Origin: Cochliopodium minus
Lineage: Eukaryota > Discosea > Himatismenida > Cochliopodiidae
Assembly (NCBI GenBank): GCA_024220525.1
Contig: JAMYWO010000041.1
Location: 91,562 to 117,276, forward strand
Direction: 5' to 3'
DNA length: 25,715 nt
Shown: in pieces, positions 2,592 through 25,222 of the stretch
Position numbering within the stretch: the first letter of the stretch is position 1
Layout of the letters: every line of letters starts with the position of its first letter
Program-made: the position numbers and the translations under genes
Notes under the pieces: generated by a model
What the model was told of the DNA's origin: nothing
Seen by the model: the letters and a program-made list of their open reading frames with translations, nothing else
The model's database searches: none

Positions 2592-2592
2592 N
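2592..2592. other. Assembly join: single N (left junction)
   Basis: This is an ambiguous base where two unrelated reading frames meet: coiled-coil coding on the minus strand to the left and focadhesin-like coding on the plus strand to the right. The right side starts abruptly inside a codon series with no start codon or splice acceptor. It marks a contig-to-contig join, so the true gap length is unknown. Confidence 0.9.
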
Positions 2593-2669
2593 GAAAAGAG
2601 ATTGTTGGCTATCTCTTCCATTGCGAGATCCCTCACTTTCATCTTCTTTTCTGAGATTAATTGCGTCGA
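2593..2669 (+). repeat. 77-bp inverted duplicate, left copy (contig overlap)
   Basis: These 77 bases, directly after the N at 2592, are the exact reverse complement of 24152-24228, which directly follow the N at 24151. Beyond 77 bases the match stops on both sides. Both copies encode the same 25 residues of the focadhesin-like protein, beginning EKRLLAISS. The best reading is one genomic locus present twice because two overlapping contigs were joined in the wrong orientation. It is not a biological inverted repeat. Confidence 0.92.
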
Positions 2670-5600
2670 AAAGATAAAGGTTTTGAAGATCATCAAACTT
2701 TTTCTACAATTCTATGGCTCTGGTGATAAATCTCTCGACAATTATTTGTATTTTAATGTCGTTCCATTTCTATTGTACCCTCTTTTAAATTACATTTCTT
2801 ATCCAAACAAAGAACTAAAAGAGATATCCAACACAGTTTTGCAAATGGTGAACAAAATCCTTCATCAAGCCCCAAACGAAGATTTTCAAGGGTTAGAAAG
2901 AATAATAACGAGCAATTCAAAGTTTATCTTTGAAAAAGTTAGCTCTCCTCTTCTATTTCTTCAATTTTCAGAGGAGTTTATCCAATCTTTGACTATGGAG
3001 AACAGTTTTGAGAAGATAAGTTGTTGGTTGGATGAAGTGGGTGATAACTTGGACTCAATAGAAAAGTCTATCAAAGAAAAACAATTGACCGAAGAAAAAT
3101 TTGAGATATTCAATGTAGGAAGGTTAACCAAGTTTCTACTTTGTGGGTTTCTAGTTCACAAGAACGAAGAAGTAAGATTAAAAACGATAAATGTTCTCAA
3201 AAGGGTAGCTGCGTTCGATGAAATAAACTGTATTGAACTTCTCCCTCTAATTCTTTTCCAATTAAAGAGAGAAACTGAAGAGAAAGTTCAGTTAGAGTTG
3301 ATGTATTTTCTTCCATGTTTGGCAAAAACAAAGTGGTCTGTTGGTCCTGTCATGAATGTCCTTTCTATTTTTGCAGAAAACTTAAAGTTGAGATCAATTG
3401 GAATAAGATTGCTTTATCAACTCTGGGTTGTTCAAGAGAAAACTTTTTCCAAGCTTCAAAAGTTCTTGCTTCATTATGATTCAAATTTATCAGAGGAGAT
3501 TAGAATATCCATAGCTTTGACAATCAGAGATATCTGTAAAAAACTTCCAGACAGAGGAATAGATGTGATCAAAACACTCAACAAGATCATCGCTGAAGAG
3601 AAACATTGCATTCCTGTTTGCTTGGCACTTGAATCTTTGCATATTATGATTGAGACTCAACTTTTGGACTTTAGGAAACTTTTCAATGTAATTAACTCCA
3701 AACTTGCGAATGATACTAGACCTTCTGTCATATCTTCATTCTACAAAATAATTAGTTTGTATGCTGAAACCGAGATAGATCCTGAAAATCCTTTCACTAT
3801 ACAAGTATTAGAGACTTTGTGGAAAGGGACCACTCACAAAGACGAAAGAGTTAGATCCTCTTCCCTACAATCCATTTCCGCTATTGCTAAAAGAGATAAA
3901 GTGTTGATTGAAAACATTAAAACTGAAGATCTTGTTTTGTTTCTCAGCGACTCAAGTCCACTCGTAATCACGGAAGCAAAAGTTTTGTTGAAAATTTTGT
4001 TGGAAGAAGAGTTACTTAAAAGTAAAATAAAGACAGAGAAAGTTGGTGTTTCTTCTGAACCTTGCCAAGGTGTAATCAATTCTGTCAAAGAATATATCAC
4101 TTCCGAGTATGAAAATGCATTTAGACCTGCAATGAGAAACTATTTGTCTATTTCTGCTCTTTGGTCGTTCCAATTTCAAACAAAAAGAGTTGCTACCAAT
4201 GCCAAACAAAAAAGAAACTTGATCACTTTGAAAGCTAAAGCCTACCAAAGAAAGTTGAAAGAAATGATCAATGATATAGATAACAACACTTGGCAGTTAA
4301 AAGTCATTTCGATACATGGATGGATCTATTACATGGAGCATTATTTGAAGGCATTAATGTTGGATCTAGTCGAGGAATTGTCGGAAAAGGAGCAAGTGCC
4401 ATCTAATGAGAAGCAGTTGTATGAGATCATCGTAAAAAGATTCAGGACAGAAATTTTGGAAAAACAATCTTCACCATCTTCTTACCAAAACAGCATCTTT
4501 GCTTTTTGTGCACTTTCATTGTACATTCCCAAAAACGAGCATTTGTTGATATCCTCCATCATTGACTACTTGATCGAAAGTTATGAAAACTCTGTTGAAG
4601 AGCAATCTTGGAGAAGAAGTTCCATCACACTAGCCCTCGCTGTTTCTTTACAAAATTTGCACACAAGTGATATCGACAGACTTGAAAGGGTTTCGGATAT
4701 TCTCGAAAAGGAGTATTTGGAATGTTCCTCTGAAGACGAAGAAAACAAGAACTGGAGATCTTTTTCTTCTATGTTGGGTCTTGGAATCATTGTTTCTGGA
4801 ATCCAGTTCTATTCTTATAACTCTTTGTCCAATGAACAAACTGAAGAAAACTCCAAGAAAAAGTTGATTGAAAAGCTTTGTTCTCTTATCACTTCTCAAT
4901 GTTTTGAAAGTCAAAGAAGTATTTTGAAGATCTCTTCCCATTTGGCTTTGTCTTATTGTGCTGCATCATTTTTCAGAGTAAAAGACAAACCAAAGCTTGA
5001 AACAATGTTTGAAAAACTCTCTCTTCTAGAAAACGAGAAAGATGAGAGTCATTTGTTGTCTTTGACAGTTTTCACAATTTACAACTTGAAAAGTGGATTG
5101 ATAGATCAAAACAAAGCATACGAAATATTCGGAAAATTAAACAAGATTGCACAATGTAAACCACAAGAGGGTGTTGAAACCTTTTCTCTCATATCTTTGG
5201 GAACATTGATCAATCACATGTTAGCAGAGGGAATCAAATTGGAAGAAAATGCAATCACTTCTGTGAAGAATTTGATTTTTGGGAGAGTCAACGAGAAAAC
5301 AACTTCTTTGGAAGTTAAAGTGGATCATCTTCTCGGTATATCCAATCTCATAGGATGTAATCTCATTATACCAATAGCCCAAGAGACTCTGAGCTCCGAA
5401 AAGTCTTTCTTTTTGTATTTGCACAGAAATTTAAACTCTGCAATACTCAGAGATTCCAACCAAGTCAACTTTGTCGAGCAAATAACGGAACTTTTGAAAA
5501 GTAGCTACAAAAACGAAGAGATCAACAATAAAATATGTGGTATCTCTTCTGTTGTGTTAGGATCTTTATCAAGAGAGCTTCCTTCTCTTTCCGAATCAGA

Positions 5601-6870
5601 ATCCCGTCTCACTTCGAATTTGGATCATTTGCCCAAAAACAGTGTGATGAGATTAGTCTTTGAAAATTTGGAGGATGTTTCTTTAGGACAATTAGAAAAG
5701 AATAGCTTCTCTGTTTCAGAATCTCTTTCTCTTTTCACTGAAATTTCTCCTAAAAAACTTCCTCAAATTAAATGGAGCATCTTTCTTCGCAAACTCCTCC
5801 AAAAAAGCAAAGATTTTCCAAATGTCGTCTCTCAATGCATTTTGTTCGCCACTAAACACAACACAGACACCTCTCCCATCATAGATCTTCTTTCTCAATA
5901 CTCTTCTTTCACCTTTTCTTCCTCCTCAGATGTACATAACGTTATTTTCGATTCCCTTCCTATTCTTCTTTCTGTTTTCAACACAAGCAGATCCACCGAG
6001 TTGATTTCCGAAATTTTGGAGAGTTTCTTCAAACAAAGCTCTTCTTTTTCTTCAAAGAAAAGGTTCTTAGTTTCTTTCAAAAAGTGTTTGTTCGAAGCCA
6101 ACAACGGGAAGATAAGTTCCACTCTCATTTCGAACATGAGAAGCATAGTGCTACAAATTTTCAACCTAGTGCCTTCTCCTTTCGTCTTTGAAGAAAACAC
6201 AAACTTCCAAGAAGTGAAAGAAGGTCAACAAATCTTGGATCTTTTGTCAGATTGTTTCTCGGAGTTTCAAGGAGATCTGAGACCTTTTTTGGTGGGAACT
6301 TTGAACAATCCGACCACTCTCGACAAAGAAAAGTGCAAAGTTGTTTACATCGCTACCAAACTCGTCGAAAACAATGTTTTGGAGATTTCTTTTCTCGGAA
6401 GATGCAGAAGTTGGTGTTTGTCACTCCCTAGCGACAACTATTTCTTGCAAGTCTCTTCCATTTGTCTTTGCAGTGTCTTTGTATCTGCTCTCAAAACTTT
6501 GCCTTCCAACGTTTACAAAGCTTTTCTTGTCGACACACTCGATTCCCTAACTTTGTGCACCAACTCACAAGTTGCACTTCACCTCATCTCGTTTCTGTCT
6601 TTTTATTTCGGAAGTTTATCTTCGGAAAAAGTCGTTTTCCCTATCAATTTGTTATCTTTCTACTACCAAAAACAACAAAACGATCTCAACAAGTTGTTCC
6701 CTTCTTCTTTGTCTTCTTTTTTGATCCCTTTCGGAACTCAATCTTACTTTAAGGGTCAATCTGGTGTTGTTCAAAGCGTCGTTTCCAAACTTTTGTCTGC
6801 ATCTTTAAAAGATAATTGTGATCCCATCAAACAAAACTTGAACTCTATCCTTCATTCTTTCAAAAATTAA
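2593..6870 (+). CDS. Focadhesin/RST1-like HEAT-repeat protein, C-terminal part (1,425 aa; misassembled)
   Basis: This is the C-terminal 1,425 residues of an alpha-helical HEAT-type protein, ending in TAA at 6868-6870. The strongest family signal is at about 3230-3760. There, a segment of the type LLPLILFQLKRE, then LKLRSIGIRLLYQLW, TIRDICKKLPDRG and finally DTRPSV follows the order and spacing I recall from the DUF3730 core of focadhesin. In the rebuilt protein this lies near residue 500-660, much as in human FOCAD (about 1,800 aa). Known for the family: human FOCAD and plant RST1 are large cytosolic cofactors of the SKI complex and cytoplasmic exosome in mRNA decay; that role here is inference. 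The plus-strand frame stays open left of the N back to 2329, but that stretch is antisense to coiled-coil coding. The true upstream sequence is on the minus strand at 24229-25222. No intron is seen in this part. Confidence 0.75.
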   Translation, partial: EKRLLAISSIARSLTFIFFSEINCVEKIKVLKIIKLFLQFYGSGDKSLDNYLYFNVVPFLLYPLLNYISYPNKELKEISNTVLQMVNKILHQAPNEDFQGLERIITSNSKFIFEKVSSPLLFLQFSEEFIQSLTMENSFEKISCWLDEVGDNLDSIEKSIKEKQLTEEKFEIFNVGRLTKFLLCGFLVHKNEEVRLKTINVLKRVAAFDEINCIELLPLILFQLKRETEEKVQLELMYFLPCLAKTKWSVGPVMNVLSIFAENLKLRSIGIRLLYQLWVVQEKTFSKLQKFLLHYDSNLSEEIRISIALTIRDICKKLPDRGIDVIKTLNKIIAEEKHCIPVCLALESLHIMIETQLLDFRKLFNVINSKLANDTRPSVISSFYKIISLYAETEIDPENPFTIQVLETLWKGTTHKDERVRSSSLQSISAIAKRDKVLIENIKTEDLVLFLSDSSPLVITEAKVLLKILLEEELLKSKIKTEKVGVSSEPCQGVINSVKEYITSEYENAFRPAMRNYLSISALWSFQFQTKRVATNAKQKRNLITLKAKAYQRKLKEMINDIDNNTWQLKVISIHGWIYYMEHYLKALMLDLVEELSEKEQVPSNEKQLYEIIVKRFRTEILEKQSSPSSYQNSIFAFCALSLYIPKNEHLLISSIIDYLIESYENSVEEQSWRRSSITLALAVSLQNLHTSDIDRLERVSDILEKEYLECSSEDEENKNWRSFSSMLGLGIIVSGIQFYSYNSLSNEQTEENSKKKLIEKLCSLITSQCFESQRSILKISSHLALSYCAASFFRVKDKPKLETMFEKLSLLENEKDESHLLSLTVFTIYNLKSGLIDQNKAYEIFGKLNKIAQCKPQEGVETFSLISLGTLINHMLAEGIKLEENAITSVKNLIFGRVNEKTTSLEVKVDHLLGISNLIGCNLIIPIAQETLSSEKSFFLYLHRNLNSAILRDSNQVNFVEQITELLKSSYKNEEINNKICGISSVVLGSLSRELPSLSESESRLTSNLDHLPKNSVMRLVFENLEDVSLGQLEKNSFSVSESLSLFTEISPKKLPQIKWSIFLRKLLQKSKDFPNVVSQCILFATKHNTDTSPIIDLLSQYSSFTFSSSSDVHNVIFDSLPILLSVFNTSRSTELISEILESFFKQSSSFSSKKRFLVSFKKCLFEANNGKISSTLISNMRSIVLQIFNLVPSPFVFEENTNFQEVKEGQQILDLLSDCFSEFQGDLRPFLVGTLNNPTTLDKEKCKVVYIATKLVENNVLEISFLGRCRSWCLSLPSDNYFLQVSSICLCSVFVSALKTLPSNVYKAFLVDTLDSLTLCTNSQVALHLISFLSFYFGSLSSEKVVFPINLLSFYYQKQQNDLNKLFPSSLSSFLIPFGTQSYFKGQSGVVQSVVSKLLSASLKDNCDPIKQNLNSILHSFKN

Positions 6871-7256
6871 AATGAAATATTTATTAACACTTTAAAAAAG
6901 GATTCAAAAGATAATCAAGCCTTTTCCCGAGGAGCTTTATCTATCTTTTTTTTTCAATTCCTTCATGTTAAATTTAAAAAAAGGAGAAATTATAATTCAA
7001 CTAAAATTTTTTTCTAATCTTTATTTTTATTTATCATAAATCACATCTTCACACCAAAATTGAAAAATATAAAATTAAATATAAAAAAATTTATAAAAAA
7101 AAAAAAAAAAATTAAAAGGTAAATATACTTCCTTAATTTCTTACTCTCAACTTTCATTCAAATCCATAATTTTAAATAAATTTCTTGAATACAATCAATA
7201 ACAATTAATCTTTAAAAATATAACCGTTTTTTTTATTGAAACAGATAAAAATATAA
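6871..7256. other. AT-rich intergenic spacer (focadhesin-like 3' end to RCC1-like 5' end)
   Basis: These 386 bases have no supported gene. They are strongly AT-rich with a run of 17 A at 7095-7111 and several T and A tracts. The spacer must hold the 3' processing site of the focadhesin-like gene and the promoter of the RCC1-like gene. I see no convincing TATA box or tRNA. Confidence 0.6.
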
Positions 7257-8765
7257 ATGAAACAAAATTCAACTTCTTGCCCTTCATTTCACAACATATT
7301 CGTTAAAGGTATAAAAAAATCACGAAATAAAAATGAATACTTTTAATTATTTTTTTTTTAAAAATTTCAGAAAATGGGGATGTTTATTCATTTGGAATGA
7401 ACACTGAGGGACAATGTGGAACAGGAAACACAAACGAAGTTAACACACCAACCAAAATAATGAACAATCCAAACATAAAATCTATTGTGTTGGGACTTAA
7501 TCATTCATTTTATATTGAGAGTAAATTTCAAATTTTATTTTATTTATTCTTTCAATGATTTTTCTCTGAATAGATAATGGAGATTTGTATGCATGTGGTA
7601 AAAACAACTATTTTTTTTTCATTTTTCTTTTATATCTTTTCAATTTTTTTTTTAAAACAGGAAGAAACAAGAAAGGACAGTTGGGAATAACAGATAACAA
7701 AACAGATTTGTCACAGTTTACTAAAATATGCTCCAACGTAACACAACTTGCAACATCTAAAAAGAAGACAATAATACAAAAAGGTAATTCCTATTTCTTC
7801 TAAATTTTACAGTTTTTTTATTAATTTTTTTTTTGAAAAAGATGACGGCAAAATTTTTTGGGCTGGGCATTGGACTGGATTAGAAATTGATAGTAATGGT
7901 TTTACTGAGATTGTTATTGATGATGTAACTTCTTTTTCTTGTGGAGATGATCATTGTCTATTTTTAAAGAGTATTTTTTCTTCTTTTTTTAATTGAAAAT
8001 TTAATTATTTGTCAAAGAAAACAAGGAAGTCTGGGTAATGGGAAACAACGAAAATGGACAGTGTGGGTTCGATGACAGTGTTGAAAAAGTAGAAGTTCCT
8101 CGTCTTTTATTGACTGACCCAAACATCATTTCTGTTGTTGCAGGTTACATGTATTCCTCATTTATCTTGACAAGTAAACCAAAGATTTAAAGATATTTCA
8201 ACAAAGAAATTAAAAATTTATTTAATTATTTTAAAGAAGATGAAAATGGGACAACTATCTTGAAAAGTTTTGGAAATAATACTTTTGGTCAAAGAGGAGA
8301 AGGAAATTCTCAAGAAATAAAAACTTTTGATTCTGTTCAAAACATTTCCACTATTCATTGCGGTGGTTGCCACACCTTTATTCTTACTCGTAAATCAAAA
8401 TAATCTGTTATAATATTTAAATAATCTGTTTTAATAGAGGAAGGAGATGTATATGGAAGTGGTGGAAATGATAAAGGACAACTTGGAATTGGAATTAAAA
8501 CTTTTAAGGTAAAGAAATTTACTAAAGTTATTGGAGATGTTTCTTTCATTACAACTGGATTCAATCACTCCATTTTTGTCAAAAGTAAAAAATATCTATT
8601 TTTAAATTTTTTTAATATTATAATTTAATTTTTTGGATAGAAAACAAAGAAATTTTTGTTTGTGGAAAGGGAGAAAATGGGCAACTTGGAATAGGTGATA
8701 AAGTGAATGTGAATTTACCTCAAAAACTTGAATTTGAAGATCTTAAATTAATTCAAAACAATTGA
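7257..8765 (+). CDS. RCC1-repeat seven-bladed beta-propeller protein, 9 exons (352 aa)
   Basis: Exons: 7257-7308, 7371-7520, 7574-7597, 7661-7783, 7842-7970, 8018-8173, 8237-8389, 8438-8584 and 8641-8765; stop TGA at 8763-8765. All eight introns (47-63 bp) have GT and AG ends. Splicing gives 353 codons in frame. Start ATG 7257 gives MKQNSTSC and runs through FHNIFVK into the first blade, ENGDVYSFG. Repeats follow: SFGMNTEGQCG, YACGRNKKGQLG, a degenerate FWAGHW blade, VMGNNENGQCG, SFGNNTFGQRG, YGSGGNDKGQLG and FVCGKGENGQLG, each with a downstream CGxxH-type or G-N-H-S strand. Exons 1 and 9 (17 and 41 residues) should close one blade together. RCC1 propellers serve as Ran exchange factors or as protein-protein platforms. 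There is no basic N-terminal tail like that of nuclear RCC1, so the partner is unknown. A possible AATAAA lies at 8794-8799. Confidence 0.88.
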
Positions 8766-8840
8766 AAAGAAAAGAAGATTTCTTTATGAAAAGAATAAAT
8801 AAAATTTTTAATCGAAAAACAATTAAATTTTTTAAACCCC

Positions 8841-9205
8841 TTAAAGGATCATTGGAACATCTTCTTTAGGAATATTATCCTTTTTTTTCTTTAAAAAGCT
8901 GAAAAATCCTTTTTTGGGAGTTTTTTCTTTTTTTTCGTTTACATTGTTTTTTGCTTCATTGGATGTTTTCTCCTTGTAATATTCATGGGAAATCCCATTC
9001 TTGTCGAGGAAATAATTTTTGGCATCATCTGTTTTCTCCTTGATGAACTCTGAAACATCTTCGATCTTCTCCTCAACATCAAGCCCAGTTCTATCCTTTA
9101 TGAATTCATTTGCATCCTCCATCTTCTCCTTGACATCTATCCCAGTGATATCTTTGACATATTCATTTACTTCTTTTAGTTTTTCTTTTGATACATCTTT
9201 GTCAT
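8841..9205 (-). CDS. Second (alternative?) terminal exon of the LEA-like gene
   Basis: The minus strand is open from 9205 to the TAA at 8841-8843 (about 121 codons). It carries the same repeats as the upstream gene, including DANEFIKDRTGLDVEEKIE, followed by a lysine-rich tail with PKKGFFSFLKKKK and the end DVPMIL. This tail is homologous to the tail of the preceding exon (PPKKGLFNYF ... IPPKIL). There is no good in-frame start at its 5' side, since the first in-frame ATG is at 9122 inside a repeat. A splice acceptor fits just upstream (CTTTACAAAG, last base 9206). A donor GTATCC at 9307-9302 joins it in phase 1, removing 102 bp and the first terminator at 9285. I infer an alternative 3' exon. 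A decayed tandem copy is the other possibility. It converges on the RCC1-like gene, with only 75 bp between stops. Confidence 0.55.
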
Positions 9206-9284
9206 CTTTGTAAAGAAAACAAATGAATTTTGAGTTTAAATTTTTTAATTTTTTTTTTTTTGAAAAGTTTTCTTTTTAAATAAA

Positions 9285-10584
9285 TTAGAGTATTTTAGGA
9301 GGGATACCATTTGGGAAAAGTTTATCAGGCTTTTGATTTTGATCTTGATCTTGATTTTTGTTCCTGAAATAGTTGAATAATCCCTTTTTAGGAGGAATTT
9401 TCGGTCTTTCTTTTTTATCGTTTAAATTCTTTTTCGCTTGCTCCTTCTTCATACCTAAAAAACTGGTTGCATCCTCAATCTTCTCCTCAAAATCAACCCC
9501 AGTCTTCTCCTTGATGAATTCATTCGCATCATCAGTTGATGAATTCTGCAGCATCCTCAATCTTCTCCTCGACATCAAGCCCAGTTCTGTCCTTGATGAA
9601 TTCATTCACATCGTCAGTCTTCTCCTTGATGAATTCTTTGGCATCCCCAGTTTTCTCCTTGATGAATTCTGCAGCATTCTCAATCTTCTCCTCAACATCA
9701 AGCCCAGTTCTGTCCTTGATGAATTCATTCGCATTGTCAGTCTTCTCCTTGATGTATTCTTTGGCATCTCCAAACTTATCTTTGAGGGTATTCCCAGCAT
9801 CCCCAATAGTATCCTTCAAGTTGTCCTTGGTATCCTCCAAAAACTGTTTTGTCTTGGATCCAACCCTCCCCATCTTCATTGTCGCATCATCTTTCTTATC
9901 CTTCAAAAAATCTTTGGCATCCTCCCATTTCTCCTTCAGATCAGAACTCTTCTGATTGATCCCAAAAAACTTTTTAGCCTTGTTCCCCGTCTCAGACAAA
10001 GTCTCCTTGAGACCCTCCTTCTTCTCCTCGAGATAATCCTTCACATTCTCCAAAGTCTCCTCAGCATCCTCCTTCTTTCGATTGAGAAAGCTCTTCGCAT
10101 TTGACAATGGCTTACCTAACTTATCCTTCACATCTTCTTTCATTTCATTGGCATATTCCTTTGTTTTCTCGAGGTTCTCTTTTGCTGTTTCTTTTCCTTT
10201 GTACCAGTAATCATCTATCTTTGTTTTTAAGGTTTCTTCTTTCGCGCTTTTGAAGGGATTCACAAAGAATATCACTGGTATGCTAAGAATTGCCAGAAAA
10301 AGAAATACGTTTTTTGGTGTCAACAAGTATTGATATGGTGCCATGTATGCTTTTATTTTTCTCAGATTCAATCCAAGTCTTGATGCCAATGGTTTTTTCT
10401 CATTCATTTTCATTTGTTCTACATTTCAATTAAAATTTAAATCATAATTTAATAGAAGCAAGAAATTTCAAAAGATTTTGAATTAATTTGTTTTACCTTG
10501 TTCCTTTTGTCTTCTGTTTTCCACAGATACTTCACGTGAAGAAGTTTTTTCATCTTGATCATGTATATTTCTTCTTAATGACAT
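9285..10584 (-). CDS. Membrane-anchored LEA-like 11-mer repeat protein (frameshifted)
   Basis: Exon 1 is 10584-10497, starting ATG with MSLRRNIHDQ. A 78-bp phase-1 intron (10496-10419, GTAAAA...TGTAG) leads to exon 2 from 10418. Near residue 60-80 is one hydrophobic segment, VFLFLAILSIPVIFF, preceded by basic residues, so it is a likely single-pass anchor. The rest is a long, highly charged amphipathic helix with 11-residue repeats (for example DAKEFIKEKTG, NANEFIKDRTG), like group 3 late-embryogenesis-abundant proteins. Known for that type: disordered when dry, helical on membranes, linked to desiccation or stress. That role here is only inferred. The first frame stops with TGA at 9532-9534. 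Compared with neighbouring repeats, 8 bp (GGAGAAGA) are missing there, and the repeat continues in another frame to a TAA at 9285-9287. So the gene is either truncated after about 322 residues or the assembly is wrong here. Confidence 0.6.
9541..9771 (-). repeat. 123-bp tandem repeat within the LEA-like gene
   Basis: Two near-identical units start at 9541 and 9664, exactly 123 bp (41 codons) apart. The second unit diverges in its last 15 or so bases. A third, shorter and diverged copy lies at the 8-bp deletion just left of 9541, and another relative is in the last exon near 9040-9122. The encoded unit combines three 11-residue helical repeats and one of eight residues. Such repeats expand and shrink easily and are also prone to collapse in short-read assemblies. 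Confidence 0.85.
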
Positions 10585-10859
10585 TTATTTGATTAGTTGT
10601 TTTTTTTTTGATATTTTGAAAATGAAGGATAAATTTTTCCTGATAAAATGAAAATATATTTTGCTTATTAATTTTGTCTATAAACAAAATTTCGAATCAT
10701 TTAATTTGATCAAATTAGCTTTTTATAAATAATAAAGTGTTAAAATTAAATATTCGCTTACATTTGTTCAAATTGGACAATATGAATCTTTATAATTGGA
10801 AAAAGAAATAAAAAAGAGAGAAATAACAACAATTTTTTTTTTTTATAAATTTTGATTTT
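10585..10859. other. AT-rich spacer between the giant coiled-coil gene and the LEA-like gene
   Basis: These 275 bases lie between the stop of the giant coiled-coil gene and the start of the LEA-like gene, which are on the same strand. The spacer must contain one 3' end and one promoter. It is rich in A and T tracts, with a TATAAATAATAAA stretch at about 10723-10735. I see no RNA gene. Confidence 0.5.
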
Positions 10860-13800
10860 TTAATTATTTCTTTTCTTTTTATGTAATTTGGACTTCAAAT
10901 TCTCAATCTGATCAACCAATCTGTTGTATCTCTCAAAGCTGACAAAACCATCAAATTCTCTCTCAGGAGTTTCATCGATAGTAGAAGAAACGAGGCTAGA
11001 TTTTTCGTACTTGTGGATGAGCTTTTGAGATTGTTCAAGCTCTTCCTTCAAAGTGTTATTGTCTCTTCTCAACTTTTCAATCTTTTTGTTTTGGAGGAGG
11101 ATGATCTTTTGGGCCTGCGTAGGAGGTTCGGAAGATAACTTGTAGGGAGACTTTGAATTAGGAGAGTTGGAAGAAGAATGCTTCTTTTTGGAGACTAAGA
11201 AAGATTTGTTATGTTCGCTTAAAGTCTCGTTTTGGTTTTCGAGGAGCATCATTTTCTTTTTGATGGTAAGATACTTCTTTTTGAGTTTGTAATTCAAAGC
11301 AGAACTTTCATTAAGCTTTTGGTAGATCTCCGAAATGTGCAAAGGCAAGTTGGATGGTATTTGGAAAGTTCCCAACTTTAAGTTTTCTTCTCTCAGTTCT
11401 TTCACTTGAGAGTCAAGTGTTGACATTTCTTTCTTCATCTCTCTGTTGACATCTAACAATTTTTTGATTGTGATGTCTTTTGATTGGATTGTTTTGAGAT
11501 GATCTTCGTTCACTTCGGGCACTTCTTTTGTTTTTGCAAGTTGGTAGTTCTTTTCTTTCAAAACTTCTACTTCTTTGTGAAGATTTTCAATGTCATCAAC
11601 CAAATAGGACTTTTCTTTCAACAAAACGTTCTTTTCTTCGAGCTCATTCAAGTAGTTCTTCTTCAATGAAGTGATCCAGTTCTGTTGTTGTTCATTAATC
11701 TCCTTTTCACATTCCAATTTCTTTTGTAACAACTTTATCATATCAGAGAATTTTTGCTGAGGAGTGTTAATATCGATATTAATTTGGTTGTACTGCTTTT
11801 CCAAGTGGAGGTATTTCTTCTTCATGGTATGGAAGCGACGTTTTGTTTTCTTGTGACCCTGCATCTCTTTGTCAAAGGCATCGAAGATTCTATCTCCTTT
11901 CCTCTCCAATGTTGCAACTTTTTCTCTTTCTTGCATCAACTCAACTTGCAACACAGTAACTTGCTTTTTGAGTTCTTCACTGTTTTTAACTTCTTCGGGA
12001 TTTTCGGAGATAACTCCACCGCTTTTCATTCTTTCCAACTCTTTCTTTAATCTTTCATTTTCTTCCAATATTTCGCTCAAATCAATCTTTTTTGTTCCCA
12101 TCTCTCCTTCATTTTCAATTTCAAACTTGCTCTTGATCATTTCCAACTGCTTCTTTGTTTTTTCAGATTCATACTTGTATTCTTCGATCTGATCAATAGA
12201 ATCATTGAGTTGATCATTGGTATTCTTCAATTCGATTTCCAACTTTTTTAGATATTTTTCTATCAATCCTTTTTCTTCAGAAGTGGAATCTACTTTTCCT
12301 TTGTAATTTTTCAACTCGTATTTCATTTCAAACATTTCTTCTTCTTTTGTTGGATTTTCCATTTTCAATTTCAACATTTCAACTTTTTCAAGAGCAAAGT
12401 CCAAATCTTTCTGCAGATTATCATTAATGATAGATGATTTCTCGAGTTTCTCTTTGAGGAGATTGCTATCTTCGTTTGATTGTGTGGAATCTCTTTGTTG
12501 GGAGACTTTTGTGGAAGAATCTTTTGATTCTAAGGTGTTTTGTAGTTCTTTCTTCAGGATGCTTATCTTTATCTTTGAGTACTCGAGTTCTTGTTCAATT
12601 TTATTTTTCTCTACTTGTTCTACTGCTTTTTCTTTCTTCGACTTGACCAATAGATCTTTTATCTCTGACAATTCTTCTTTTTGAACTTCCAAAGTAAGCA
12701 CATCTAACTTTTCTATTGCTTTGCTTAAATCATCCTCTACCATCACTCTTTCAATTTCATATTCAGTGGGTTGTTTGGTTTTTATTTCAACAGAGAGCTT
12801 TTCAAGTAATTTTGGAGACAAATTCTTTGTGAGTACTTGGTTTTCCAACTTTAAACTCTCATTTTCTTTTTTGATATTCTCTATTTCATGAGGATTGAGA
12901 AGAGATTCTCCAATAATGACCTTATCATTCTTTCTTTCTTTTATCAGAATATCCATTAACTTTATATTTTCTTTTCTTTCGGAATCCAATTCCTTTCTTG
13001 TTTGTTCCAAAATATCACCTCCGTAAGCAATCAAATCGCCAGATTCTTGAATGTCACCACGATGATAAACATTTTCTGATCTGAGTTCCACTGGGATAGT
13101 GACATTTTCACTTTGTGAGGTAAAGGTCATCAAGTCTTCAGGTAGTTCCCAATTAATGTTGTTTATCTTCATTTTTTGATTATCTTCTTTTAATAAGTTG
13201 TATCTATCCAACAACACTTCAAAGTTTTCTGGCCTAAATGTCTCTTCTGTCATGATATTGATCTGTTGTGGGCTGGAACTTTCAAAGGAGGTAGATGTTG
13301 AATGTTGGGAGAGTTTTTTCTTTCTGAGTTGTTCATTTTCTTTGATCAAATTATTGATTTCCTCTTTCAATTCTTCCATTTGTCTTTCAACATTGTTATT
13401 GTCGATTTCAAAGTTGTTTGGATTTGTTTCTTTCAATTTTTCAAACTCTTTTGTTTTTTCATCTTTCTTTTCTTCTGCTTCTTTTGATTTTTCAACTTCT
13501 AATTTTATTTTCTCATTCAAAACATTCAAATCTTCTTTAGTCTTTTCTATTTTCTTGTTCAAGAGCTGGATTTCTTTGGTAGGTTCTTCTGTTTGTTCAG
13601 TCTTTTCGTTGAGGAGTTTTTCCATCTGCTTTAATCTGTTTTCGTTGATATGTTTCTCTTTTTCAAATTCGTCAACATTAACCTTTGATTCATAAATCTC
13701 TTTCTCAAGAATCTTGATCTGTTTTTCGTGTTCTTTCAAGTGTCTTTCTTTTACTTCTACTTGCTGAGATTTTGAAATTATTTTAGGGTTTTCCATTTCT

Positions 13801-16800
13801 CTTTTTATTCTATCAATTTCTTCATACATTTTTTCAAGGTTCTTTTCAGTTGAAGAAACTTTTTGATTCTCATTATCCAAGTTTTCTTTCAATTGACTCA
13901 TTTCTTCCCTTTTTTTCTCGATTTCCTTCTCCAAGTTTTCAACTTCTTCGCTTGTGAGTATGTTTTGGTTTTCTTTCTCCTTTTCCAATCTTCTTAAGCG
14001 AGTTTGATTTTTCTGTTTCTCCATTTTGATTTCCTCAACTTTGAATTTTATTTCATTCAATTCACTCTCAACTTGTTTTGCTTGTAATTCTCTCTTCTCA
14101 AGTTCTGGTAGTGATAATGAATATTTCAATTTTTCGTTTTCTTTCACAAGTCTACCCAACTGGTTCTTCAATTCTTCTATTTGAAACTCTGGACCATATT
14201 TCTTGTGTTCAACTGCTTTCTCCATTTCCTCATTCAACTTTTCAATCTCTTTAAGTTCTTCTAATTTCTTTTCTTCAACTACCTTTGCTTTCTCTTTTTC
14301 TGCTTTGATTTTCTCTTCCAACTCTTTTATGTCATCTTTTGTCTTTTCTATTTTTTTGTCCAGTACTTGGGTTTCGATAGTAGGTTCCTCTGTCTCTTCT
14401 AATTTATCATTAAAGAGTTTTTCAAACTTTATTAATCTTTTTTCGTTTGAATTTTTGTCATTTTCCAACACTTTTACAACAACATCTGATTTTTTTTTCT
14501 CCTTTTCAAGAATTTCCACTTGTTTTTCGTGTTCCACCAAATCTCTTTCAATCACTTCAACATCTCTTGCTTTTAGTGGAGTGTTTTTCACTTCTGGTAC
14601 TTTTTCGGCAGGTGAGTAGATTTCAAAAGGAGATTGATCCAATTTCTTGAGTTCTTCATTCTCTTTTCTCAATCCTGTGATTTGGATTTTCAAAAGTTCA
14701 ATTTGATCCACTTTGGTGATGGGAGTATTTTGTTGTATTTCACTCGAGAATTCCTTTACTTTTTCTTCTGATGACTTTACTTTATCATTTTCAATATCTA
14801 TTTTCATATCCAGTTTTCCCAAACTTTCTTTTATTCTGTTAATCTCCTCATTCAATTTTTCTATTTCTAAAAGAGAGTTTTTGTGTTGTTTTTCCTTCTC
14901 CAAGTACTCTTTGTTCAATTCTTTCAGGGAGGATTCAATCATTTCTTTGTCTTTTTTGAATTGATCAATCAATAATTTGGAATTAGATTTATCTCTTTCT
15001 AATGATTCAATTTGAATTTCACAAATCAACAACATTTCTTTCAATTTTTCTACTTCTTGATTGATATCTACAGAAGTTGATATTTGGGGATAATAAAGGA
15101 AATCTTTGTTAATATCTGTGAGATCAATCATTTCTTGATTGTCGATAGTAGGTAATTTTCTGAGTTCTTCATTTTCTTTTCTGAGATTCACAAGTAAGTT
15201 GTTCAACTTTTGTATCTTTTCACTTGAATGATCAACAGTTTTTGGTTGAGTTAATTCGAGATGTTTGATGCGTATTTCATTTTCTTTTTCCTTCAATCTC
15301 TCAATCTCTTTCAACTCTTCCACTTTTTTCTCTTCTACTACTTTTGACTTTTCTTTTTCTACCTTGATTTTGTTTTTCAACTCGTTTATTTTAGTTTTTA
15401 TCTTCTTTATTCCCTTTTTCAACACTCTAGTATCTTGCGAAGGTTCCTCAGATTGGATTTCTTTATCTAATAAGTTTTCGAGTTTTTCTAGTTTTTTTTC
15501 GTTGGATTCAACTTCTTTCTCTGTATCTTGAATGATGATCTTTGATTCCATGATCTCTTTTTCAATTATCTCCGCTTGTTTTTCATGTTCTACCAATTCT
15601 TTTTGTATCACTTCAACTTGTAACTTTAGATCTTCTCCTTCGTTTTGGTTGGTTACATTAGGTGAAATTTCGTTTAGGAAGGAGTATTCTAGTTGATTTG
15701 ATTTCTTTATTTCTTTATTTTCATTGTTGAGAGTAATGATCTGATCCTTCAGCACTTGCATTTCATACTCTGATCCAACCAATTGGCTTTGAACTGTTGT
15801 TTCATGAGGGAGAGTGACAGGAGTAAAATCTTCTTCTTCAATGACTCTTATCCTTTCTTCGAATGATCTTACTTTTTCGTTTTCATTTTCTATTTGAATG
15901 TCCAACTTTACCAAATAATCTTTGGTCTTCTTTATTCCTTCATTGAGTTTCTCTATTTCCCCCACAGGTACTTGTTGATTATTCTTTTTTTCTTTCAATT
16001 GATTTTCCAATCTTCTCAGTCTAGTAATGATCATCTCCTTTTCACTGTTGAGTTTCTGAATCAAAGATTTAGAATCTGATATTTCATCATTAATTTCAGA
16101 AATCTTTCTTTCACTTTCCAATGAAAGAACTTTTTTAGGAGCGGAGAAAACATTTTGAGTAGAAATCTCCAACTCTTCAGGCGATTCTTCTATCTTGGAT
16201 TCCTCCTTTGGAGAAACTTGATCTTCAACATAGGATGGTGAGGGATTATTCTCCACTACTTCTACTTTATTCTTCTTCAACGCAGATACTTTCTCGATCT
16301 TTTCGATTTCTTGCTTTTTGAGGAGGATCTCTTTATCTAATCTATCTATTTCTATTATTATTGCCTCTTTCCTTGATTCAGATAATTCTGATAAATTTTC
16401 AATGGTGATCTCCAATCTTTGAGGATCATTGAATTGTTTCAAGTGATTTTCTAAATCTTCTTTTTGTTTGATAGAATCATCAAGATTGTTTTTGAGATTA
16501 GATAACAAATCATTTTGATCAATCATCTTTCCACCACATTCACCACAAAAATCATCTTCACCCTCTACTCCACATTCTGAACAGATCTTCATCAAATGGG
16601 AAGGAATGGATTCTTTATCGATCATAGTACCTCCACATTCACCACAAAATTCATCTTCACCCTCTACTCCACATTCTGAACAGATTTTCATCTTTAAATG
16701 CTCATGTTCTCCTTCATGTGAATGAGAATGATCATGTTGATGTTCTTTATCTCTCATTTCTCCACCACAGTTTGCACAGAATTGATCACTATCTAATCCT

Positions 16801-19800
16801 TCTTTGCCACATTCGGCACATTCCTTTGTAAAGTGTTTCTCTTCTTCTTCTTTCTCGTTTTCAAAGAGATCTTTCATTTCACCACCACACAGACCACAGA
16901 ACATTCCATCACCAGGTTCACCACACAAAGCACAAACTCTGAGATATTCTTTTTCTTCTTCTATTTCTCTAGAGTTTTCTTGAGAGTAGCTGTATTCTCC
17001 TGTCAGGTTCTCTTCCTCATCATCGTATGAACTGTTAACAAAATCCTCTTCGTTTGGAGATATTTCTTCTCCTTCAACTTTGTTTTCTTCGGATGTAGGA
17101 GGTATTATGGGTGGAAGGAGTTCTTTCAGCTCTTCATTCTGTTCTTCCAACATTTCTTTTTTTCTCACCAACAACTGTATCTTTTTGATCATCTTTTCTT
17201 TTTCTTGAACATGCAAATCCATCTCCTCATTGAGCAATTGATTATCACTAGATGCGAGATTCAGTTCTTTTTGGTTGATGAGAAATTTCTTCCTTGTGGA
17301 TGCTAGATGAGATTTGAGATGTTTGACTTGCAACTCTAGATTCTTAATCATCTTTGATTTGTTTTGGAGAACAGAGAGATCACTCGGGGTTGATTGTTTT
17401 TGAATTGTTTCCTTTTGATCTTTTATTTCTATTTTTGCTGTAGAAAGTTGATTTTTGAGTTCGAACACCATATCTGCTTTTATCTCTTTCTCTTCATTCA
17501 AATAATCAATCTCATCCAAAGCCTCATCCAATTCTCTATTGACCTTTGTTATTTTTTTGGAAGATGTATTCAATTCTTCTTCCAAAACATTCATCTCTTT
17601 CTCTACAAACACAAATTGACTTTGGATATGTTCTTTTTCGTTTTGGAGGATCTTGTAATGGTCAACTTTTTTGTTTAATCTGTTTTCTGATTCACTAAGT
17701 TTACTGTTTGTGTCGAGCAATGTTGTTTCTTTTTCCCTAAGCCTTTCTTTGAGATCTTCCACATGTTCATTTGATGTCTTCAATTTTTCTTCAAGAACTT
17801 TCTTTTCTTCAAGAACGTTTTTCAAATTGTATTCTAAACTTTCTATTTCCATCTTTTCTTTCTCTACTTCTTTCTTTGAAATAACCAATTCTTCTTGAAC
17901 CTTTGAAAAATCTATCTCCAACTGTTCTACTTGCTTTTCGAATTTAACAAGAAGAACAGACTTTTGTTTCACCATCTGAACGAGTTTTTCCTTTTTCGTG
18001 CTCAAATCTAGTTGTATTTGAGTAGAGGATCTATTTAAAGTTTCAAGTTGTTCATTCAGAGCTTCTTTTTCTTTTAGTGATTTTTCTATTTGTTCTTCTA
18101 TTGCAAGCTTTTGTTCATTGAAGATCTCCTCTTTGATTTTGATTTCTTCATACTTGGATTTTACTTGTTGGTTCTCCATTTCGAGATTCACAATCTTCTT
18201 TTGGTAAATCTCTTTTTCTTTTTTGGATTTGATTTGAGAAGATTCAAGAATTTTGATCTGATTTTGAAATTTAAAGAGATTCTCATTCAAATTGTAATTT
18301 TCTTTTCTCAACTTTTCTTCATCCTCCTCAATCCTTTTTATCTTTTTCTCCAATTCAGATATGGCAAGAAGATTTTCTTCATTCATTCTCTTAAGCTCTT
18401 CATTTTCATCAGATGATTTTTCAATCTTCTCTTCGTACTCAAGTTTTGTTTTGGTGAGAGCGGTGACTTGTTTTATGAGATGTTTGCTTTTCTTGTTGAG
18501 TTTTTCGATTTGATTATTGGTTTCTTCAATCTTCTTTTCCATTTCTTCCTTCTCTTTGGTGATATCATCAATCTTGATCATGAAATCCTCTATCCTATTT
18601 GTTGATTCTTCCAACTTGATTTTAGTAAATTCATAATTCTTTTCTATCTCCAAGAACTTAAACTCGATCTCCCTTCTCTCATTCTCGGATGTTCTGTATT
18701 TTTTATCCACTTCAATCTTTTGTAACTCTAATTCATTCAGTTTAGATTCACTCTCCTGAAGTTTGCGAGTAGCAGAAACAACTTGTTTTTGATACAAAGA
18801 GATCTTTTTCTCCAACTTATCTTTTTCTTTGAGGAGATCAGAGAGTTCCACTCTGATTTTTGATGTTTCGATTTTGATCTGATTATTTTCTTCATTTGCA
18901 TCTTGGAGTTTGGTATTTAGTGTTTCGTTCTCTTCTTTCAAATTTTCTACTTGCATCTCTGTTTGATAAACTTCTTTCTCCAAGATTTCGTTTTCTTTTC
19001 TGAGTGAATTGATCTCCAATTTAGATTTCTCGACATCAAACTGTATTGTCTCCAATTTCTCTTGGAATACAAATTTTGATTTCTCCATCTTTTTTTCCAA
19101 GCTTTGGATTTCATTCTTTAATTTTTCAGAGTTTGATGTTTCTTGTTTCAATTCCTCTTTCAAGCTATCATATTTCTGTTTTTCAAAATCAATTTGATTT
19201 TCGATCTTTTCTTTCTCACTTTTAAGTTCTTCGATTTGTAAATCAAAAGAATTGATGATTTGGTCTTTCTTTTCGCTTTGTACGTGAAGATTTTTGTTCT
19301 CTTCTTTGTAATCAACAATCTCTAAAGATAGCAACTCTTTTTCTTTGTTCACATCTTCTATTGCTTCATCAAGATTTTTGTTTGTTTGTTCAAGTCTTTT
19401 GATCTTTTCTTCCAATATTCTGTATTCCTTCGTAGATTTTGACAACTTCTCGATCATTAGTTTTTCTTTCTTTGAACTGATAGAAATTTTCTCATTTGCC
19501 AAGATCAAATCGTTCTTCAAGTTATTCTCAGATTTTGCCAATGTATCTATTTCTTCTTTCAACTTGTTTGTTTCTTCTGAAGAGATCTTATTCTTTTCAA
19601 CCAATAATTCAAGCTGGTTTTCTACTCTTTCTTTTTGTCTTTGCACTTGAACTATTTTTTCTTCTAACACTTTTACATCGTTGAGTGATTTTGATATTTC
19701 TAGGTTCATTTCACTCATTTCCTTTTCATTGTTCTTTAGTTTTAGTGTCAATATATCAATTTCGGTTGTATATTTCTTCAAATTTGATGAAATATTTTCT

Positions 19801-22800
19801 TTCTCATTTGTCATGTCATAAACCTTTGATTTTAATTGTCTCTTTTTTAAGTTCAACTTGTTGATTTCTTTGAGATTCTTTGAGATCTTTTCTTCACTTT
19901 CTTTTATCTCCAATATATCTTGCTCTGATCTCTCAATCAATTCATTCATCTTCTTTTTGAGAAATTCTTGGCTTTTTTGAAGCTCTTCTATTTTTTCTTC
20001 GTATCTTTTGTTATTTTTCTCGCTTTCTGAAAGTTTTTTGGAAAGTTTTTCTTGATCCAAATTTAGGTTTTCTTCACTTTCCCTTAGATAATCATTTTCT
20101 TTTTCCAACTGTTCTTTCAATCTTTGAGAAATGGCAAGATCAGATTTCAATCCCTTTTTCTTTTCTTTCAACTTTTCTATTTCTTGTTGAGAGGTTTTTT
20201 CCTTTTCCATGATCTTATCTTCATACATGTTTTGCATATTCTGTATATCTTCTTTGAAAGAGTTTGATTCTTTTGTTTTCTCATTTGTTAATTCCTCCAA
20301 TCTTAATTTCATCTTGCTGTTATCAGATTTGAGTGAATGAAGATCATTTTCGAGTTCATCAATAGTGTTATGAAGATTATCATTCTCGGATGTAGAGAAA
20401 TTCATTTGCTTTTTGATTTTATCCAATTCAACTTTAATTTCTTCATTCTCATCATCCAATTTGTTGATTATCTGCTTGGTTTTCTTTCTTTCTTTTTCAA
20501 AATCTTTGTATTGTTCGATTATTTCATCTTTCTCTCTTAGAGTTGATTCAAGTCTTTGTCTAATCACATTTTCGGATTCATTCAGATTAGATATTTCCAT
20601 TTCAAGCTTTTCTATCTTTTCTTTTTGATCATTTCCAAGCTTTAGTAGATCGGATATTTCATTTTCCAATTTATACTTCTCATTTGCCATCATCTTGACT
20701 TTGCTTTCCAGATCTTGAATCAATTTCATTTTATCCGAGTGGAGATCTTGTAGTTTGTTGTGTTCTAGTTCCAGCTTATCTAGTTTAGATTCTAAATTCT
20801 CATTCTTCTCTTCAGATTTAGTAATTTGTGATCTTAGATTCTCATTTTTCTTGTTCATTTGATTTCTAATCTCCTCTATTTCCCTCCTTTTCTTCTCAGA
20901 TTCGTTATTAAACTCTTCTTTGATCAACTCTTTATCATCTCTCAACTTTTGGTTTTCGTTTTTCAACTTTGTCACTTCAACATCAATCTTCTCAAAGTTT
21001 TCGTGGAGTGTTTCATTCTCTGAATCAAGAACCATCGAGAGTTGTTCAAGTTTCTCAATCTTTTCTTTCATTTCTTTGTTTTCTTTTGCTTCCTCAAGTT
21101 TATGTTTCAACTCGTTTTCAGATTGAGAAAGTGAAACGATGTATTCTCCCATTTGTTGTAGTTTTATTCTTTGTATTTCTCTTTCTTGTTTCGCCTCGTT
21201 GAGTTCATTTTCAACATTTTCCTTTTCTGTTTCTATCTCATTAATTTTTTCAACTACTTTCTTCATTTTTGTTTCGTTATCTTTTTGGTGAATAAGTGAT
21301 TCTTTTATTCCTTTATCCAACTTTACAATCATTTGGTTTGCGTCTTCAAATTGTGTCAACAATTCCTTGTTTTCTTTTTGGATCCTCTCTTTATCTTGTT
21401 CTGCTGTAATATCACTTTCCTCTGTTTGTTCTGTTCCTTCAATTGAATTTCTGTGAATTGATCTTACATAACTTGATTCTTCTAATAGATCTTCTTCTTC
21501 TTGTTGATCCTCGAGAGGTGTATCAACTCTTTCACTAATCTTATTTTTGAATTCTTCAAGTTCTTTATTCTTTAGATCCAATTCCCTTTCTAAGTTGTTG
21601 ATTTTGTCTTCATTGAAATATTGGAAATTATTGATTTCTTTGTTGACATTTTCCAAACTTTCAACCTTTTCTTTGAGGAGATTATTTTCATTGTTGACAG
21701 AATTGTAGGTTGGGGAATTATCATTATTTTCTAATTTCAAATTGGAGAGTTTCTCATTCAACATATCAAGTTGTTTAGACTTCTCAGACAGTTCCTCGTT
21801 CAATACTTGAACCTCTTTAGATTTAGAATTGGAAGATTCTAAAGATTTGTCGACTTTTTCTTCAAGTATCTGTTTCTGTTTTTGGAGATCTTTGAGTTCT
21901 CTAGTAAAATCAATTATCTTTTTCTCATAATTGTTCAACATTTTGTTTGATTCGATCAACTTGTTGTTCTTTTCTTCCAAATCAGTCTGATTGTTTTCTA
22001 TCAACACATTCAACTCATTCACTTTATTTCCGAGACTTTCGTTTTCCTTTTTGTGCTTATTGATAAGTTTTTCTTTCTCTGAATTGAATCTTTCTCTTTC
22101 TATTTCGAAATATTCCACATTCTTCTTCAGATCAATATTTTCAACTTCTAATAAAGAAATCTCCCTATTAAACTTTTGTTCAATCTCTTTAATCTCCTTT
22201 TGTAGATCATTTTCTATTCTTACTTTTTCAATTTCTTTTGTATTGATTTCATTTTTCAAATCATTTATTTTGGAGTAAAGTTTTTCTTGAAACTCTTTCA
22301 ATTCCAATTTTTCTTTCTCTGCCAAGACATTCATCTCTTCAACTTCTTTTGCTTTGAGGTAGTGATTTTGGATCACTTTTTTGAGAGAATCAATGTTTTC
22401 AACATCTTTAATAATCTGATTCTCCAACTCTTTGATCTTTTCTTGTGAAAATAAATATTTACTTTGTGCACTTTTCATTTGTTCGGATTGATGTTGTTTC
22501 TCTATTTCGTTCTTGGAAAGATCATCCTTCAACTCTTCCATTTTCTCTTTAAGATTTAAGACTTCTTTTTCGAGTTCTCCCATATTTCCTGATTTCTCCA
22601 ACTTCTTCATCTCAATCTCTTTGTTTTCTATTTCTTGTGAAAGAGTATCCATCTCAGATATAAGTCTTTGGATCATCAAATCTTTTTGATTGAGATTTTC
22701 CCTTTCTTCTTCAAGCTGATCTTGAAATTGAAGATTGTTTTTCTTCTGCATTTCCACATCATTTTGCAAGTGAGAAACTTGATCATTGAGATCATTCACC

Positions 22801-24150
22801 TCTAATCTTAATTTTTGGATGGATCTTTTGGTATCATCGTTTTCTTTTTGGATTCTATTGTTATCTTCTTCCACTTTTATCAATTTGGAGGATATCTTTT
22901 TGTTCTCATCATTAAGATTCTCAATACTTTCTTGGAGAGATTTGATTTTGATATCGGTTAATGATTTGAGCTCATTCTTTTCCTTTTCTAATCTATCTAC
23001 TGAATGTATCTTTTCATTATTTATTTCATCCATTTTGTTGTTCATATCGAGGATATCTCTTTCATACACTTTGAATTTCTTCTCCAAATCTTTGTTTTTC
23101 TTGGACAACAGGCTCAAATCTTCATCGTCCCTTCTACTTTCCTTGTTCTCATTTTGAATCAACTCAATCTTTTTATTCATAGACTCATTAATCTCTTTTT
23201 GAATGTCAAGAGAATTTGACAACTGTTTTCTTTGTTGTTCCAAAAGAGATATTTGATCATTTAGATCATTCTTTTCTTTGTTGAGATATTCCAGATCGTT
23301 TTGATATTGCAAAGACTTGGAATTCAACAATAATTGTGATTGTTCAAGGTTTTTCTCCCTCACTAACAACTCTTGTGAGAGTTTTTCTTTTTCTTTTTCT
23401 GCATTTTTGAGGATTTCCTTAATTTTTTCTAATTCAATGTTGATCTTCTCAAATTCTTCATTTTGCAAACTCTTTTCTTTTTCATCTCTGAACTTTTGGT
23501 TTTCGTTTTTCAATTTTGTCACTTCAACATCAATCTTCTCAAAGTTTTCGTGGAGTGTTTCATTCTCTGAATCAAGAACCATCGAGAGTTGTTCAAGTTT
23601 CTCAATCTTTTCTTTCATTTCTTTATTTTCTTTTGCTTCTTCAAGTTTATGTTTCAACTCGTTTTCAGATTGAGAAAGTGAAATGATGTATTCTCCCATT
23701 TGTTGTAGTTTCATTCTTTGTATTTCTCTTTTTTGTTTCGCCTCGTTGAGTTCATTTTCAACATTTTCCTTTTCTTTTTCTATCTCGTTAATTTTCTCAA
23801 CTACTTTCTTCATTTTTGTTTCGTTATCTTTTTGTTTCACAGCAAAATTATTTATTTCTTCTTCAAAACAACTAACTTTTTGTTTTGTTTCTTCAAATTC
23901 ATTGTAGATTTCCTTGTTTTGTTCTTCAAGTTTATTAATCACGTTCACCTTTTCTTCTGATCCATATTCAAGTTCTTTAACTTTATTTTGAAGCATTCCA
24001 AGTTCCAATTTGTATTTTAGTTTTATTTCGAGTAATTGGCTCTGTAAGTCTTTGGATCTACGCATTGTTATGTTCAATTCTTCTTGCAGCTCTCTCTTTT
24101 CGTTTTCCAACTCTTCAATCATTTCTATTTCCAATTCAGAAGATTCATCT
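10860..24150 (-). CDS. Giant coiled-coil protein with four central zinc ribbons (at least 4,429 aa, 5' end missing)
   Basis: One open frame of 4,429 codons runs from the N at 24151 to TAA at 10860-10862, with no intron. The frame continues past the N to an ATG at 24200, but that part is antisense to the focadhesin-like gene and should be discarded; the real start is missing. About 95% of the protein is heptad-rich coiled coil. Around residues 2400-2540 the coil is interrupted by an acidic stretch and four CxxCG ... FCxxCGG ribbons with a histidine-rich linker. A second coiled-coil half follows, with three diverged copies of a 270-350-residue module. The last 200 residues are basic and serine-rich in places (KKHSSSNSPNSKSPYK) and end in LHKKKRNN. 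No kinesin, myosin, SMC ATPase or membrane segment is visible. A scaffold or tether is likely, but I cannot name the family; databases often give such proteins vague coiled-coil names. Expression level and partners are unknown. Confidence 0.85.
13330..16100 (-). repeat. Three diverged copies of a 270-350-residue coiled-coil module
   Basis: Within the giant coiled-coil protein an ordered block recurs three times. It runs: a helix with TRLRRLE-type residues, then EIEKLNE, an acidic linker, EHEKQ, an EEP-containing hinge, KIEKTK and finally KVVEEKK. The EHEKQ codons lie at about 15577, 14521 and 13720, spaced 1,056 and 801 bp. The copies are diverged at the DNA level, so the duplications are old. 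Module borders are approximate. Confidence 0.65.
16520..16945 (-). other. Cluster of four zinc ribbons with a His-rich linker, inside the giant coiled-coil protein
   Basis: On the minus strand four motifs of the form CxxCG-x(5-8)-FCxxCGGxM follow one another: CALCG/FCGLCGGEM, CAECG/FCANCGGEM, CSECG/FCGECGGTM and CSECG/FCGECGGKM. This gives 16 cysteines, enough for four Zn(II) sites. Between the second and third (about 16698-16745) is a His-rich linker, HQHDHSHSHEGEHEH, which could bind additional metal. The ribbons resemble the double zinc ribbon and zinc-ribbon families known as binding modules. Ligand and partner are unknown. An acidic, serine-rich stretch precedes the cluster. Confidence 0.85.
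16530..16694 (-). repeat. 99-bp spaced tandem duplication of zinc ribbons 3 and 4
   Basis: The DNA of ribbon 4 (from 16531) and ribbon 3 (from 16630) is nearly identical over about 60 bp, at an offset of 99 bp (33 codons). Ribbons 1 and 2 are much more diverged. The pair is therefore a recent in-frame duplication. Confidence 0.8.
20931..21287 (-). repeat. 357-bp direct repeat, downstream copy (in giant coiled-coil gene)
   Basis: These 357 bases match 23478-23834 without gaps at a constant offset of 2,547 bp. By eye about 11 bases differ (about 97% identity), and one stretch of more than 100 bp is identical. It encodes 119 residues from KDNETKMKKVVEK to LRDDKE. The rest of the flanking coil is not similar. 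Confidence 0.9.
23478..23834 (-). repeat. 357-bp direct repeat, upstream copy (in giant coiled-coil gene)
   Basis: This is the partner of 20931-21287 and lies nearer the N-terminus of the protein. It encodes the same 119-residue helix with about six substitutions (for example M to I and K to E in the EIQRMKLQQMGEY region). The high identity in one protein indicates recent duplication or gene conversion. Confidence 0.9.
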
Positions 24151-24151
24151 N
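24151..24151. other. Assembly join: single N (right junction)
   Basis: This ambiguous base separates the 5'-open giant coiled-coil frame (left, minus strand) from the N-terminal part of the focadhesin-like gene (right, minus strand). The bases to its right, 24152-24228, repeat 2593-2669 in reverse complement. It is a contig join with the left block in the wrong orientation. Confidence 0.92.
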
Positions 24152-24228
24152 TCGACGCAATTAATCTCAGAAAAGAAGATGAAAGTGAGGGATCTCGCAA
24201 TGGAAGAGATAGCCAACAATCTCTTTTC
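24152..24228 (-). repeat. 77-bp inverted duplicate, right copy (contig overlap)
   Basis: This is the exact reverse complement of 2593-2669 and abuts the N. It encodes the same 25 focadhesin-like residues, EKRLLAISS to FSEINCV, then the first two bases of the next codon. On the left block the codon is completed and the protein continues as EKIKVLK. This shows the two blocks are continuous in the real genome. Confidence 0.92.
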
Positions 24229-25222
24229 AGTAGAAAGAAGATCCTCTATCATTATCAATATATCTATGAGAGATTGATTCTTTTTGTTTCCAAAAACAAC
24301 TTCGATGCACAAAGAGATTAATCTTTTCACCATTTTGGAAGATAGTTGGAGGAATTCTTTTTCGTTTTTGATCTTTTTAATGGAAGTAATCAACAAACTG
24401 TTCACCTTGTTCAAAAGATAGGTATTCTTGAATTTTATGTTTTCTGTGATATCCACCAACAAGTTGATGATCAATGAGATGTTCTCTGATCCCTTCGAGA
24501 ATTGTATCAATTGATTGATTATCTCTATCAACTCTGTATCATTCTTTTTCTTCTCGATAAGATATCTCACAAAGTTCTCTATAGCTATCAATCTCTTATC
24601 CAAGAATGTAGATTTCACTATCACTTCATTCAAACATGATTCCAACAAGATATGCCATGTCTCTGGTTTATTGACAAGAATATTAATGTAAGGATTGTTG
24701 GAATCTTCCTTCAAGATCTTTATTAATTCATTCTCTTCATCCCCTTTTCTCTTTATCAATTCTCTTGATATTTTCTTGTTCAATATTTCCAAGCATGGAA
24801 TAAATGTATTCTCATTTAATTTCAACAATGATTTAACCATATCTTCCATCATTTGAGTCAATGTGATTTTTTTGGATTCATTGAGTGATATAATCTTTAA
24901 ATTTTTGATAAATATGAATTATAATTACAAGGATAATAAATATAAAGAAATGATGAGCTGATTTGAACAAATCAAAACTATTTTATAATCAATTATGCTA
25001 TTATTTGAAATTTTATGGTAAATTATATTTTTATACCGAATCAAACACAAATTCTGAGATATTTTCTATTGATGAGATCTTTATAAGATACACATAAGCC
25101 TTTTGTTGATATTGTTGATTTTGATTCGTTAACAAAAATTCAAATAATTCTTTCACTGCAAAAATTTGGGCATTCGTTTGTTTTGATGTAATTTTTTCTT
25201 CAATAAATGCCAATGCTTCCAT
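24152..25222 (-). CDS. Focadhesin/RST1-like protein, N-terminal part (two exons, 309 aa; misassembled)
   Basis: Exon 1 is 25222-25037 (62 codons, starting MEALAFIEEK). A 142-bp intron at 25036-24895 (GTATAA...TTAAAG) is removed in phase 0, and exon 2 runs from 24894 into the join at 24151 (247 codons plus two bases). The spliced junction reads ISEFVFDS-IISLNESKK. From memory this matches the N-terminal region of human focadhesin in pattern: an opening SQAVxxL helix, an AEF...ILNLIPS helix, then a PxxxxLxxxPxxW motif (here NPYINILVNKPETW). Without the intron the exon-2 frame opens only at a TTG, which supports splicing. Joined to 2670-6870 it gives about 1,709 residues, close to the family length. 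The role in SKI/exosome mRNA decay is known for the animal and plant relatives and inferred here. The 3' end is cut by the join, not by mutation. Confidence 0.72.

Follow-up and report, generated by a model that had tools for sequence, protein, structure and literature searches.

A probably misoriented contig splits a focadhesin-like gene in the draft genome of Cochliopodium minus

Gap letters and an inverted end overlap

The stretch of DNA analysed here, referred to as the window, comprises 25,715 bases (C41:91562-117276) of a draft genome of 44.65 Mb in 598 contigs. It hosts the parts of a focadhesin-like gene, two long coiled-coil frames and a set of short tandem repeats. Just two Ns occur within it, both single, at 2592 and 24151. 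These divide the window into three parts that we label A (up to 2591), B (2593-24150) and C (from 24152), with a gap letter on either side of block B.

B and C begin with the same sequence in opposite orientation. Positions 2593-2669 (plus strand) and 24152-24228 (minus strand) are exact reverse complements over 77 bases, with 2593 paired to 24228 and 2669 to 24152, and the match fails at a length of 78. Both copies share one reading frame (EKRLLAISSIARSLTFIFFSEINCV). The initial annotation had described single Ns at these two positions, each followed by 77 bases that are exact reverse complements and encode the same piece of protein, and this description is confirmed. A search of the whole genome returned two matches to the 77-mer, both at 100% identity, which are these two places and none elsewhere. 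For comparison, no other exact inverted repeat in the window exceeds 21 bases, the length of the second-longest, and about 5e-36 pairs of length 77 are predicted from base composition alone.

Each copy of the overlap has an N at just one of its ends, the two copies mirroring each other. The match stops at 2592, where B ends and C continues, and it stops at 24151, where C ends and B continues. These mirrored boundaries have the look of two overlapping contig ends, one of which has been turned over, while a biological repeat would need to end by chance at both Ns. A candidate extension of the similarity past 77 bases (110 BLAST columns, 91% identity) was rejected, as it is not significant against 1500 random within-window pairs (P 0.06 and 0.18).

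Ns were sampled from C41, minus C41:40001-41561 and N-reading stretches, and from 50 kb of C1 and 50 kb of C5, which also contain N stretches. The sampled stretches are 73-75% A+T. Anaeramoeba was weighed as a possible source and considered unlikely: A. ignava has 80.65% A+T and its assembler was ABruijn, while Flye was used for A. flamelloides (PMC11550330). Among PDB chains, the enolase piece of this genome is most similar to animal enolases. Nine single Ns are found in 213,707 readable bases, three of which adjoin simple A/T arrays. Some scaffolders write one n at a join, and the single Ns do look like contig joins. At one of them, C41:159593, a minus-strand frame runs on without a stop when the N is given the length of one base, which suggests that this join is correct as printed.

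Contigs produced by SPAdes overlap by k, and the initial annotation had taken the 77-base overlap as the signature of this assembler with k=77. That claim rests on one overlap. Terminal exact overlaps of at least 16 bases in the flanks of all N runs, single or long, form seven pairs, with lengths of 77, 48, 68, 44, 59, 42 and 53. The six other than 77 all lie in repeats, the 48-base overlap in a dispersed repeat and the five of 42-68 bases in simple A/T arrays, so the fixed-length end overlaps expected at other joins of de Bruijn contigs with k=77 were not seen. This leaves k=77, and SPAdes with it, uncorroborated; they are not refuted either, as correctly merged overlaps leave no trace.

The 48-base overlap was considered as a second case of the same kind. 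It belongs to C41:22110-42151, a span of 20 kb flanked by single Ns, the two ends of which share 48 bases directly, with a palindrome (AATATGTGTCTGGAGGTCCAGACACATATT). We rejected this candidate, as the shared bases are a dispersed repeat and uninformative on orientation; with the query's own locus counted, the repeat has at least 40 near-full-length matches (40 of 293 candidates scored). A literature search for single-N joins or 77-base contig overlaps yielded nothing usable, and the passages of PMC6733440 that were searched describe neither.

A focadhesin-like gene on both sides of the block

The left end of B encodes the C-terminal 1425 codons and the stop of a focadhesin-like gene (2593-6870, plus strand). 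Residues 217-427 of this part (3241-3873) match DUF3730 (Focadhesin/RST1, Pfam PF12530) with an E-value of 9.9e-40 and 136.9 bits, which passes the curated cut-off of 30.3 and identifies a Focadhesin/RST1 domain. There is no Met ahead of residue 85 of the B part, so a further upstream part is needed.

In C, a minus-strand frame is open right into the N at 24151. This part of the gene consists of exon 2 as far as it lies in C (24152-24894), a putative 142-bp GT-AG intron (24895-25036) and a putative exon 1 of 62 codons that starts MEALAF (25037-25222). When 2593-24150 is turned and the overlap is counted once, the two parts form a single frame of 1709 residues, with the one putative intron and no internal stop, in which the 77-mer begins at residue 285. 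The initial annotation had predicted that this flip and the collapse of the 77 bp would give a continuous focadhesin-like frame, and all 1709 residues are indeed open. It had given the affected range as 2592-24228, which is right, the turning unit itself being 2593-24150. An alternative acceptor would result in a 226-bp intron and 1681 residues; the splice sites are putative, as they were placed from GT-AG and frame only.

Human focadhesin has about 1800 residues, with DUF3730 near residue 500. The rejoined frame, in which DUF3730 lies at residues 501-711, would fit this layout. Furthermore, DUF3730 was found once genome-wide, and in a genome search the peptide that spans the join matched the two halves only. 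Together these results mean that no intact second copy was found, although N-reading stretches could hide one.

The likeness to the Focadhesin/RST1 family lies in an above-cut-off DUF3730 in a long helical protein, and the difference lies in the N-terminal half, which has no profile match here. No Pfam family scores above cut-off in that half, and no Pfam domain was found across the join with residues 1-520 of the 1709-residue frame as the query, which cuts DUF3730 off. The membership of the N-terminal half in the gene is therefore argued from frame and position. Solved structures gave no match to the B part up to an E-value of 1; for the C part there were two matches, both at chance level (E 0.19 and 0.63). 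Our literature search found no paper that combines focadhesin and a protist.

Further along B, at 8841-10425, there are minus-strand frames of short tandem repeats (DDANEFIKDRTGLDVEEKIEDA-like). One of these frames has a putative membrane segment, with weak, sub-cut-off matches to Apolipoprotein and YtxH.

The left-hand join and the coiled-coil frames

Turning B restores continuity at the right-hand join and not at the left-hand one. Contig A ends in a coiled-coil frame on the minus strand (3-2591), with 863 codons in the window, coding up to the N and with its first Met at codon 22; followed beyond the window, this frame is reported as 3052 codons and crosses an N-reading stretch. The right end of B holds a giant coiled-coil frame, also on the minus strand (10860-24149), of 4429 codons and a stop, with its 5′ end open at the N and its first Met at codon 10. 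The flip sets these two frames head to head, both 5′-open, which leaves that of A without a start and that of B without a sure start. This implies that a fault remains at the left join: either the missing 5′ ends lie in a gap that is longer than one base, or A is a wrong neighbour. The ends of A and B at this join have no overlap in common, and neither occurs a second time in the genome.

In the printed order, if the N is taken as one base, the coil frame of A continues without a stop into the antisense of the 77-mer and reaches an ATG. This favours the printed join. With a one-in-three chance of the frames agreeing, we judge it a likely coincidence, and it carries much less weight than the other evidence.

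The coiled-coil frames have some features of their own. The giant frame of B carries four CxxC...CxxC zinc-ribbon-like units mid-frame, and its best Pfam match is to DZR at residues 2406-2462 (E 1.9e-4; 22 bits, under the cut-off of 27.3). Near the right end of B the same frame contains a direct repeat of about 450 bp with 89% identity (23476-23926 and 20929-21379), which might have led to some confusion of read pairs. In the coil frame of A, 68 bases (1513-1580) are identical to C41:73410-73477, within another giant coil frame of at least 3077 codons on the same scaffold. This identity starts exactly at the end of a long N stretch.

Interpretation and consequences for the draft genome

By far the best reading of these results, and one we hold with high confidence, is a misoriented contig: three contigs strung together with single Ns, with B backwards relative to C. 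The exact, N-bounded dovetail of 77 bases, the shared frame, the position of the domain and its single copy all argue for this, as do the sampled single Ns, a third of which adjoin simple arrays, as contig joins would. On this reading, the scaffold was put together from A, B and C, with an N written wherever two of them meet, and B went in the wrong way round with respect to C. The 77 bases at the left ends of both would then be one stretch read in opposite directions, the overlap common to two neighbouring contigs. In the cell there would most likely be one focadhesin/RST1-like gene of about 1709 codons on the minus strand, running from 25222 through C and on into B. For this arrangement we infer three things: the two Ns represent contig joins, the turned piece is B rather than C, and the true neighbour of the right end of B is A. 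The contig-join error that the initial annotation had proposed, splitting a focadhesin-like gene, is in this respect well supported, with the reservation that only the right-hand join is repaired. The case resembles known inversion misassemblies in that a whole contig is turned between gap letters, a split gene is made whole by turning it, and an end overlap is left unmerged. It differs in that one of the two joins is unhealed by turning.

The left-hand join bears on a variant of this explanation, which overlaps with it: B and C are neighbours, but either A has been wrongly placed next to the right end of B, or the piece to turn is not B but C with everything to the right of it. The two 5′-open frames that face each other after the flip, and the genome-unique ends of A and B with no overlap between them, are what a misplaced A would leave. 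However, a plain gap of more than one base that contains both 5′ ends explains the same facts, and the scaffold order A, B, C was linked by data outside this analysis. We consider the variant rather unlikely. A further alternative is that two contigs happen to end in a common dispersed repeat, to which the 77 bases would belong; the 48-base end overlap of the single-N pair at C41:22110/42151 is a repeat of this kind. Yet the 77-mer is present at two places only in the genome and codes within the sole DUF3730 gene found, so the chance of this alternative is negligible.

A real inversion in the cell deserves separate discussion. In the staggered-break model, a chromosomal inversion leaves inverted duplications at both edges, and the block shares with such inversions a short inverted duplication at either edge. 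Here 77 bases would have been duplicated and the focadhesin-like gene split, and the open start that the coil frame of A gains as printed, with the N as one base, would be in keeping with this. That said, both breakpoints must fall on Ns, of which there are nine single ones per 213,707 readable bases in the sample. Where such an inversion would show continuous sequence over both breakpoints, there is an N at each, and the duplicate is exactly the contig end overlap. Both gene halves are still fully open, and no other DUF3730 copy was found in the genome. A real inversion is thus very improbable. We give slightly less credence still to a fuller version, in which a very recent staggered-break inversion duplicated 77 bases and disrupted the sole focadhesin-like gene found, and the antisense strand of the duplicate supplied the adjoining coiled-coil gene with a new start (MKVRDLAMEEIANNLF...).

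If B is misoriented, as we think, anyone working with this draft will find the focadhesin-like gene in two pieces, chimeric frames where the two Ns stand, and genes in the wrong local order. The error is of concern mainly to such users. Stretches bounded by single Ns that share an exact inverted end overlap are easy to recognise, and other drafts could be scanned for this marker. For the organism itself, the gene is most likely biologically ordinary, and its split a technical assembly error rather than a real biological feature.
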